In this document: piece after piece, positions 47,325-49,417 of the stretch
How the letters are laid out: each line of letters begins with the position of its first letter
Numbering within the stretch: the stretch's first letter is position 1
Virus record (IMG/VR): IMGVR_UViG_3300035126_000263
Coordinates: 1 to 54,876 of that record
Length of the DNA: 54,876 nt
Reading direction: 5' to 3' (one strand)
Origin: a virus
Program-made: the position numbers and the translations under genes
The notes under the pieces: generated by a model
What the model was told of the DNA's origin: nothing
The model's database searches: none
What the model saw: only the letters and a program-made list of their open reading frames with translations

Positions 47325-47525
47325 TTAGGAAAGGCGAATTACTACGCAATCGCCAAACATGGCAGGGAATAAATCTAGCTTCTTGTATGCGCCAGCTTCA
47401 GTATAAGTGAAGATGTCCCATTTGTTGTCTGTCCAGTCGCGCGAGTCGCCATAAGCAGACCCACGATAAAAAAGGCCTTCTGGATTCTGGATTGCATATT
47501 CGCAAGTTATATATGTGTTGTTCAT
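47325..47525 (-). CDS. Small hypothetical protein (66 aa)
   Basis: MNNTYITCEYAIQNPEGLFY..., then RGSAYGDSRDWTDNKWDIFT and AMFGDCVVIRLS. Beta-rich with aromatic residues. The start overlaps the 36-residue gene stop (ATGA). Confidence 0.6.
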   Translation of the reverse strand: MNNTYITCEYAIQNPEGLFYRGSAYGDSRDWTDNKWDIFTYTEAGAYKKLDLFPAMFGDCVVIRLS

Positions 47526-47632
47526 TTTTGGGTTTGTTCGAGTTGTTGGATTTTTAGTTTTAGCACCGCGATCTGCTTTGCATCCCTGAGAGACGCAAGT
47601 TTGACCCTTAGCGCATAAGTTTGTTTAGTCAT
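47522..47632 (-). CDS. Very small coiled-coil protein (36 aa)
   Basis: MTKQTYALRVKLASLRDAKQ..., then IAVLKLKIQQLEQTQK, one amphipathic helix. It overlaps both neighbours by 4-8 nt. Confidence 0.5.
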   Translation of the reverse strand: MTKQTYALRVKLASLRDAKQIAVLKLKIQQLEQTQK

Positions 47633-47846
47633 ATAATTCAATGTCGGCGGCAACGCAGGTTTCACAATAGCCGCCTTCATTCAATAAGCGCACAGGATAC
47701 TTAGTGCGGCATTCGGTGCATTTGATTTCAAAGCCGCTGATGCGACGGTCAACGCACATGGCAGCGATTCCGATTGGCAGGATAGCGTCATCGCATTTCA
47801 GGAAACGCTCGCCAGTGGTTTTAGATTTCAATGGTGTTATTGTCAT
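47625..47846 (-). CDS. Zinc-ribbon protein (73 aa)
   Basis: MTITPLKSKTTGERFLKCDD..., then IKCTECRTKYPVRLLNEGGY and CETCV, giving a CxxC...CxxC zinc ribbon. First gene of the leftward early operon with a long structured leader. Such proteins often bind nucleic acid or RNA polymerase. Confidence 0.7.
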   Translation of the reverse strand: MTITPLKSKTTGERFLKCDDAILPIGIAAMCVDRRISGFEIKCTECRTKYPVRLLNEGGYCETCVAADIELYD

Positions 47847-47866
47847 ATAGGGTTTTTTCTAATTAT

Positions 47867-47938
47867 GGCGGCATGATAGCCGCAGGATTTTTCTGCATTG
47901 TTTCGACACTGGCAAAACCAGTGCGAAAAGTTTTTTTT
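47867..47938. promoter_or_regulatory. Hairpin leader/plus-strand terminator
   Basis: As minus-strand leader RNA it holds three stems: TTTCG-x-CACTGG with CCAGTG-CGAAA (47901-47928), GCAG/CTGC (47882-47896) and GCGGC/GCCGC (47868-47883). Read on the plus strand, the first stem is followed by AG and eight T (47931-47938), a good Rho-independent terminator, although no plus-strand gene lies just upstream. It could stop antisense transcription coming from the small-terminase promoter. Confidence 0.6.
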
Positions 47939-48008
47939 AGTCAAAGAGCGTTTGTGAAATTACTCGCAGACCTTGAATTGATCAGCATCTGCGAACATCA
48001 CGAGAGAG

Positions 48009-48036
48009 AGAATACAACACAGAGAGAATATGTCAA
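48009..48036 (-). promoter_or_regulatory. Leftward promoter of the small-gene operon
   Basis: TTGACA (48036-48031), a 16-bp spacer, TATTCT (48014-48009). The predicted start near 48002 gives a 155-nt leader before the zinc-ribbon ATG. Confidence 0.7.
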
Positions 48037-48064
48037 CAGATTTTTATTTATTATTTTTAGATAG

Positions 48065-48837
48065 GGGACAAGCAAGTCTCGTTCCACTCTTCTATCGTTA
48101 TATAGCGATATTTGCCATACTAAGTATGGCAAGAACATCATTAGCATCTTTCATGCCATCGCTCTATCGCTAAACAGCGATACTTGCCATATTGCGTATG
48201 GCATAGCAATCTCCGCAACTTGTTTCCGGTTTTCCATGCCATCACCGAAAATGCGATTGCCTCCAAAAATCCCCAATGCCGATACACCATCCGTTTCATT
48301 CCACGCAATCCTGTGCCAACCTCGCGCAAAGATTATTGCAAGCCGCTTGCATTATGTCATCCTGCTAATGAGACTGGTAGCTTCTGATAATATCAGTATG
48401 AAATAGCGGCGGCCTTTCCAGTCTCAACAATGCCGGACATCACCCGCCAATCATTCCGGCTCATCGCTCATCACTCGACTATGAGCAACGCTGCACGCTG
48501 CACAGCCGAGACTATACTAAGCAGGAACGCGACACTGGCAGGCCGTAGCACGGCGGCGTAAGAAATCTATTTTTCTATAGGACGGCGACCCCATCACCCC
48601 CCTGCCCCACGCACCCCAGCGCGCCAGCTCCCAATGCGGAAACCCCTCTCCCTAGAAAAACCGCTATTTTATGCAATGCGTATCTTTATCCTCTCCCCAT
48701 AAAAACTCCATTTTTTACCTATACGCATCTTTATCTCCCCTATGCTTCGCACCCATGCAGCTACGCTGACCCATGCTAAAGTCTTATGCTTTGCTCTAAT
48801 GTCGTATGCTGATGTCTTATGCGCTGCTCATGTGCAG
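48065..48837. other. Non-coding structured region
   Basis: No convincing gene: the short frames (48184-48387 plus, 48141-48329 minus) overlap hairpins and look random. The region holds the double-hairpin repeat (48092-48203), an inverted repeat GAGACTGG/CCAGTCTC (48370-48377 and 48418-48425) around CTGATAATATCAG, a C-rich tract (48590-48650), a repeated CTTTATC segment (ATGCGTATCTTTATCC near 48677 and ATACGCATCTTTATCT near 48722) and three related TATGC/GCTC words (48782-48832). Candidate roles: second replication origin, packaging or recombination site, or non-coding RNA. Confidence 0.5.
48092..48203. repeat. Tandem double-hairpin repeat (two 40-bp units, 72 bp apart)
   Basis: Units at 48092-48131 and 48164-48203 differ at about seven positions yet keep both hairpins: TATCG...CGATA, then TGCCATA...TATGGCA. 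A T-G pair in unit 1 is C-G in unit 2, and a C-G pair in the second hairpin of unit 1 is T-G in unit 2, which suggests selection on structure. Each unit is followed by a CATGCCATC word. Confidence 0.65.
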
Positions 48838-48853
48838 TTATCGGTTCCGATAA
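48838..48853. promoter_or_regulatory. 16-bp palindrome copy 16 (centre GTTC)
   Basis: A fully symmetric 16-mer (TTATCGGTTCCGATAA), 18 nt past the stop of the last gene of the long leftward operon. Confidence 0.8.
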
Positions 48854-48871
48854 TCGTGTGCTAACCATCCT

Positions 48872-49417
48872 TTAGTTTTCGCAGGAGTAGATAGTCTCTT
48901 GGAGTTTGAGTTTTGGGAGGGTGGGTAGGGTGTAGGAGTTATCTTGGAAGGCTACTTTGTTGGTGGGTTGGATGGTTAGCCTTCCGTTGGCGAGTTCTAT
49001 GAAGATGAATTCCTTATCTTGTTCTGGGCTATCTGACCAGCCATCGTTTAGGTGGGCGGTTGAGAATAGGTAGGTTCCCTTTAGTATGTTTGGGCCTATC
49101 TTGGTTGTTACTGGCATTCCTCTTAGGATTGGGTTTTGGAGTATGGTGAAGTTGTATGAGTAGCAGTCCCAGAGTTGGCTTTCTTCTATCCGCCAGTTTT
49201 CGAGTGCTTTTTCTTTGAATCTGACTGCGTTTGGTGGGATGTTTCTGTAGAGTGCGCCGCCTTCTCTTAGGATGACATTTATTCCCCATGCTCTACTTGG
49301 GATACTTGTTAGTCCTATCCACATAGCTTCTACTGGCCCGATTGGTTTTTCGTGCGTGTATTCGCTATCTATCCAGATGTAGCGGTGAGTTGGGAGTGCG
49401 CCGATTTTTGTATTCAT
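48872..49417 (-). CDS. Hypothetical protein (181 aa)
   Basis: MNTKIGALPTHRYIWIDSEY..., then EAMWIGLTSIPSRAWGINVI and NDGWSDSPEQDKEFIFIELA. Mostly beta strands with many W and Y. Last gene of the long leftward operon that crosses the join. Function unknown. The start is only 1 nt from a TTATCG palindrome. Confidence 0.75.
   Translation of the reverse strand: MNTKIGALPTHRYIWIDSEYTHEKPIGPVEAMWIGLTSIPSRAWGINVILREGGALYRNIPPNAVRFKEKALENWRIEESQLWDCYSYNFTILQNPILRGMPVTTKIGPNILKGTYLFSTAHLNDGWSDSPEQDKEFIFIELANGRLTIQPTNKVAFQDNSYTLPTLPKLKLQETIYSCEN

Follow-up and report, generated by a model that had tools for sequence, protein, structure and literature searches.

The usual view is that phages rely on the housekeeping sigma factor of their host or on a polymerase of their own. 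RpoN (sigma-54) is the stress and nitrogen sigma factor of bacteria, and sigma-54 promoters need RpoN together with an AAA+ activator. Described systems close to the locus reported here are the sigma-54 promoters with upstream activator sites, such as those of E. coli glnA and pspA. The likeness lies in TGGCAYG-N4-TTGCW elements with palindromic sites nearby, some of these 80-120 bp upstream of the proximal element. In contrast to glnA and pspA, the locus is phage-borne and stands in tandem with a sigma-70 promoter at a fixed distance. Its palindromes also occur directly beside the -24 element, and no activator for them is known; to our knowledge, they match no described activator site.

A second likeness is to the boxA leaders of rRNA operons, suhB and the lambda nut sites. 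As in these, a boxA-like YGCTCTTTGA follows a 5' hairpin and precedes the first gene, and the phage leader has a further hairpin. It differs from them in having G where the gamma-proteobacterial consensus has A, and in the distance of ~17 nt from boxA to the second hairpin.

Genome and gene context

The analysed DNA comes from a lake virus, record IMGVR_UViG_3300035126_000263 (54,876 nt), here called the window over its full length. Its terminal 127 bases are identical at start and finish, which makes the assembly circular. It encodes a DnaB-like helicase, a lambda-O-like initiator, a terminase, a RusA-like resolvase and a helicase. Among the annotated phages searched, neither close DNA relatives of the window nor a match to the terminase were found. 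Close DNA relatives are abundant among uncultured viral contigs. Features of the gene context are:

47847-48871: gap between two leftward genes (48872-49417 and 47625-47846)
47625-47846, minus strand: first annotatable gene of the leftward operon, 73 aa, no family match
4.8-6.7 kb: terL

No conserved gene was found in the gap, in agreement with a sequence-only reading that had taken the kilobase as non-coding and had named a translated gene as counter-evidence. Its general claim of a special cis-acting region was upheld as well. From its motifs and their arrangement, the kilobase is probably, though with considerable reservation, the transcription control region of the leftward gene block that runs from 47846 down to 42722, with tandem sigma-54 and sigma-70 promoters. 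The 181-aa protein neighbouring the gap has matches to cyanophage and other phage proteins, all below 60% identity. A small lysine-rich protein (MTKQTYALRVKLASL...; 47522-47632, minus strand) is encoded early in the leftward operon of many relatives.

Sigma-54-type elements and palindromes upstream of a sigma-70 promoter

The left part of the gap contains a tandem repeat, each unit of which consists of a sigma-54-type element and two palindromes, followed leftward by a sigma-70 promoter.

48066-48137 and 48138-48209: 72-bp tandem repeat, 47/72 positions identical between copies
48158 to 48142, minus strand: distal sigma-54-type -24/-12 element, TGGCATGAAAGATGCTA, rank 4 of 109,720 positions
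48086 to 48070, minus strand: proximal sigma-54-type -24/-12 element, TGGAACGAGACTTGCTT, rank 6 of 109,720, predicted start near 48060
48093-48110: palindrome 1 of unit 1, TATCGTTATATAGCGATA
48113-48131: palindrome 2 of unit 1, TGCCATACTAAGTATGGCA
48165-48182: palindrome 1 of unit 2, TATCGCTAAACAGCGATA
48185-48203: palindrome 2 of unit 2, TGCCATATTGCGTATGGCA
48036 to 48009, minus strand: sigma-70 promoter (TTGACA, 16 nt, TATTCT), kept in relatives
48040-48058: AT-rich, UP-element-like tract upstream of the -35 box

The sigma-54-type elements were first spotted by eye and afterwards tested by a matrix. In related phages the tandem copies have the consensus TGGCAYGNNNNTTGCTW, which matches the sigma-54 (RpoN) consensus. 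GG at -24 and GC at -12 lie 12 bp apart in the TGGCAYG-N4-TTGCW context; the positions that stay constant coincide with those of the sigma-54 consensus, and the 4-nt gap varies. Each window element has one mismatch to the phage consensus, and several relatives are perfect. Genome-wide, matches to this consensus with up to two mismatches were not above chance in number. Scoring was carried out with a matrix from the 62 E. coli sigma-54 ChIP sites quoted in PMC4591121. On this matrix, which may not suit the phage's host, the two window elements rank 4 and 6 among 109,720 positions and score 13.1-13.5. The ChIP sites themselves have a 25th percentile of 13.2, a median of 14.6 and a 95th percentile of 16.85. 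The elements of the relatives, most often tandem and on the minus strand, mostly reach 15-18.9, at or above typical E. coli sites, with the top score (18.9) above the 95th percentile. On a simpler consensus score, 29 sites of at least 18 were observed in 27 genomes versus 0.86 expected from shuffles, two of them in each of 12 genomes; the related genomes share ancestry, and these counts are therefore not independent trials. Ten of the 27 genomes lack a site this strong: in six the region has been replaced, L103 is truncated, and the others are L082, L086 and L092.

In 13 genomes of two clades (the window, W, with 50 bp, and L085, L088, L097, L100, L124, L150, L187, L047, L094, L096, L101 and L135) the proximal element stands 48-50 bp upstream of the -35 box of the sigma-70 promoter. 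The distance of the distal element varies. In L099 the proximal element is 59 bp from the -35 box, and L083 has kept the distal element alone. L086, L082 and L092 have no element within 260 bp of the -35 box and keep the sigma-70 promoter and the leader. Promoter and leader were not found in L084, L089, L091, L093, L102 and L105, which carry a gene of ~240-340 aa (IDQMFKRNSLGYLESSKA motif) near the conserved 117-bp block described below.

The palindromes correspond to two hairpin units that had been placed at 48092 and 48164 with a length of 40 bp. The units are real, each with two near-perfect palindromes as proposed, but they measure 39 nt and start one base further right (48093-48131 and 48165-48203). 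TATCG-N8-CGATA occurs exactly twice, as does TGCCATA-N5-TATGGCA, for which 0.14 occurrences are expected even allowing two mismatches. In the 620 nt left of the conserved block, 3 strict hairpins were counted versus 0.18 in shuffles (0/60 as high), and no other part of the genome is as dense in hairpins as the two windows over this stretch. The total for 27 genomes is 36 hairpins, with 6.7 expected. Chance does not explain the hairpin units. Judged by their sequence, the palindromes are most likely DNA sites that an activator may bind. Relative to the proximal element, unit 2 is placed 79-117 bp upstream, a usual distance for activator sites, and unit 1 is just 7 bp from the proximal -24 element. 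Other relatives have different repeated words at the corresponding place, CATATC/GATATG or TTCATT/AATGAA, indicating that the words turn over. A search for PF00158 (sigma-54 activator) in the window and 18 related records found none encoded, so that a host activator would be needed.

In the main rival reading, an activator from the host or the phage binds the TGGCAYGNNNNTTGCTW elements and drives the sigma-70 promoter. Each element would then be a pair of half-sites spaced by one helical turn, in the manner of PhoB/OmpR-type direct repeats, and the palindromes would bind further regulators. The fixed spacing to the -35 box would fit this reading, since activator sites typically show such spacing and stand in several copies upstream, and TGGCA and TTGCT are similar words 11 bp apart. 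However, the two halves differ consistently in the way sigma-54 requires (G3 and T16 in 29/29 sites, T13 in 28/29), and the scores in relatives equal or exceed those of most real E. coli sigma-54 sites; this evidence is partly circular because the sites were selected by sigma-54 score. On balance we regard the rival as rather unlikely.

A conserved leader RNA

Downstream of the sigma-70 promoter, the predicted transcript begins with a conserved leader.

48001 to 47954, minus strand: leader-RNA hairpin at the predicted 5' end, with compensatory changes
47950 to 47941, minus strand: boxA-like word CGCTCTTTGA
47923 to 47907, minus strand: second leader hairpin, CACTGG-TTTTG-CCAGTG

The strongest and most consistent signal in alignment folding was found here, on the minus strand at 47899-48018 (z -9.6) and 47940-48065 (z -7.7). 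A plus-strand window at 48065-48129 gave z -13.5 and was set aside because of its low energy (-2.5 kcal/mol) and almost absent shuffle variance. Windows over the palindromes reached z -5 to -9, a range that perfect dyads would be expected to give. Under the stated structure, 86% of the cells in the first leader hairpin are paired, and 6 of the 12 pairs have changed on both sides, versus 3.1 in shuffles (3/500 as high). The covariation score was 0.317 versus 0.189, and sliding the partner destroyed the signal. A covariance model of the leader found it once per genome, both in the window and at related loci, some of them from genomes outside model building.

YGCTCTTTGA has a single exact match in the window, which is the boxA-like word of the leader, and the word is kept in most leaders. 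It agrees with the boxA consensus GYTCTTTAANA (PMC5725501) at 9 of 11 positions, is conserved and stands before the first gene. A conserved neighbouring hairpin, as in boxA/nut-type sites, is provided by the covarying 5' hairpin and less clearly by the second hairpin. Leaders of this type bind NusB-NusE or a phage N protein; no N-like protein was recognised.

From these elements, whose conservation, fixed spacing and first-hairpin covariation are read directly from the DNA, we infer a control region that would work as follows. RNA polymerase carrying host sigma-54 would bind both -24/-12 elements of the tandem (48158-48142 and 48086-48070). To open these promoters, an enhancer-binding activator would act from the palindromes (ATCGC...GCGAT and TGCCATA...TATGGCA), which are interleaved with and lie upstream of the -24/-12 elements. 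A second start would be provided by the sigma-70 promoter at 48036-48009, a fixed distance downstream. The RNA would then begin with the conserved hairpin, the boxA-like word and the second hairpin, a layout resembling leaders that recruit Nus factors against premature termination, and may recruit them likewise.

It is conceivable, though we stop short of calling it probable, that widespread uncultured freshwater phages keep a gene block under tandem host sigma-54 and fixed-distance sigma-70 promoters with fast-changing palindromic activator sites, and that its expression follows the nitrogen or stress state of the host. If true, these phages would couple a gene programme to host physiology, and activator sites differing between relatives would be a record of the host signal that each uses. 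The open literature searched gave no paper in which a phage operon is naturally under sigma-54 control, which does not by itself show that there is none.

The 117-bp block and packaging

The best-conserved non-coding stretch lies to the right of the hairpin units:

48556-48672: 117-bp block, C-rich on the plus strand, one copy per genome, no RNA-structure signal

Its length is nearly constant, and it is found as a single copy in a fixed place in all three groups of relatives. The control-region reading leaves the block unexplained. In some relatives its C-run has turned into a G-run. A T7-like promoter reading of TTTTTMTRGGGAG was rejected: two exact copies exist, both at the block, and total matches were not above chance. 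Two matches of the block in cellular genomes were judged chance.

A block present once per genome, at the same place and so well conserved, would suit a packaging site (cos or pac), and the sequence-only reading had suggested a packaging or recombination site in this region. The mapped ends of ten long related contigs (metagenomic) gave this no support, as none lies at 48 kb, and terL is at 4.8-6.7 kb. We consider packaging at this place improbable. About half of the ends of the ten contigs fall at ~9.7-12.9 kb near a 470-aa gene and represent either assembly breakage or a real end.

The proposed replication origin

The same reading had also proposed a replication origin, in which palindromes and repeats would be iterons and the AT-rich tract an unwinding element. 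All three are present, and the cumulative GC skew, which it had named as a check, has an extreme at 47-48 kb. However, the sign is wrong for an origin, with the skew falling at 48 kb as at a terminus. A DnaA box within one mismatch was not found at 47.8-48.9 kb, and the turnover of the repeat words is not accompanied by any sign of an initiator to match. Near-palindromic iterons are located instead inside the O-like initiator gene at about 2.43-2.53 kb (2421-2530), as would be expected of initiator-binding repeats. The iterons are allele-specific: this gene carries other ones in relatives, such as three copies of TGGAAGATTCTTCC, and their position inside the gene is as in lambda. The initiator gene with internal iterons lies beside a helicase gene, like lambda ori in the O gene, and this arrangement sits at 2.4 kb, unlike the region reported here. 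An origin at 48 kb is therefore very improbable.

Conservation of the hairpin units

Base changes between the two units had been said to keep pairing. Only two stem positions differ between them in the window, and both changes are one-sided (T.G to C-G and C-G to T.G). A comparison of 12 units taken from 8 genomes gave 6% unpaired cells and not one two-sided pair change, no better than in shuffles. What is conserved in the palindrome arms is the sequence, and this agrees better with DNA sites than with an RNA fold. Perfect hairpins with short loops and conservation in related phages would be compatible with a structured non-coding RNA, as had been suggested, but the absence of compensatory pairs in the 12 units, the z near 0 in alignment folding of the 117-bp block and the lack of an Rfam family above cut-off (only a chance match far below the cut-off) leave this barely credible for units or block, and the suggestion holds only for the leader just outside the kilobase first proposed (48001 to 47907, minus strand).

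When viral contigs were scanned permissively for double hairpins, most matches were due to chance, but L171, L187 and L249 were added. Like the double-hairpin mobile elements of fungal mitochondria, the units consist of two adjacent hairpins and vary in copy number; unlike those, they are confined to one putative control region, with no dispersal over the genome. The L171 unit stays at the corresponding gene position, and mobility was not supported.

Other repeats and dyads in the gap

48241-48257: degenerate third ATCGC...GCGAT dyad, ATCACCGAAAATGCGAT, matched better in some relatives
48337-48351: dyad TGCAAGCCGCTTGCA, arms kept in relatives, one outer pair swaps
48370-48425: interrupted inverted repeat, GAGACTGG/CCAGTCTC
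48645-48734: two 45-nt tandem copies (73%), covering the right end of the 117-bp block
48773-48829: two 24-nt copies with GTCKTATG words
48839-48852: palindrome TATCG-N4-CGATA

Several of these had been anticipated. The interrupted inverted repeat was found, and the pairing of GAGACTGG is poorly kept in relatives. The repeated CTTTATC words are contained in the two 45-nt copies (48645 and 48690), and the TATGC words in the 24-nt copies at 48773 and 48806. GTCKTATG occurs at 48781, 48801 and 48814, a cluster directly downstream of the 181-aa gene that is also seen in one clade. These words are spaced 13 and 19-20 nt apart, with the same spacing in many relatives.

The predicted palindrome copy is present at 48839-48852. 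The first hairpin of the units shares the TATCG/CGATA arms of this genome-wide motif, and the proposed likeness goes no further. In the whole window, TATCG-N4-CGATA has 16 exact copies, and 19 with at most one mismatch versus 0.9 expected. The copies (e.g. 1609, 13936, 28566, 48839 and 49420) are often found at gene borders, and some lie within genes.
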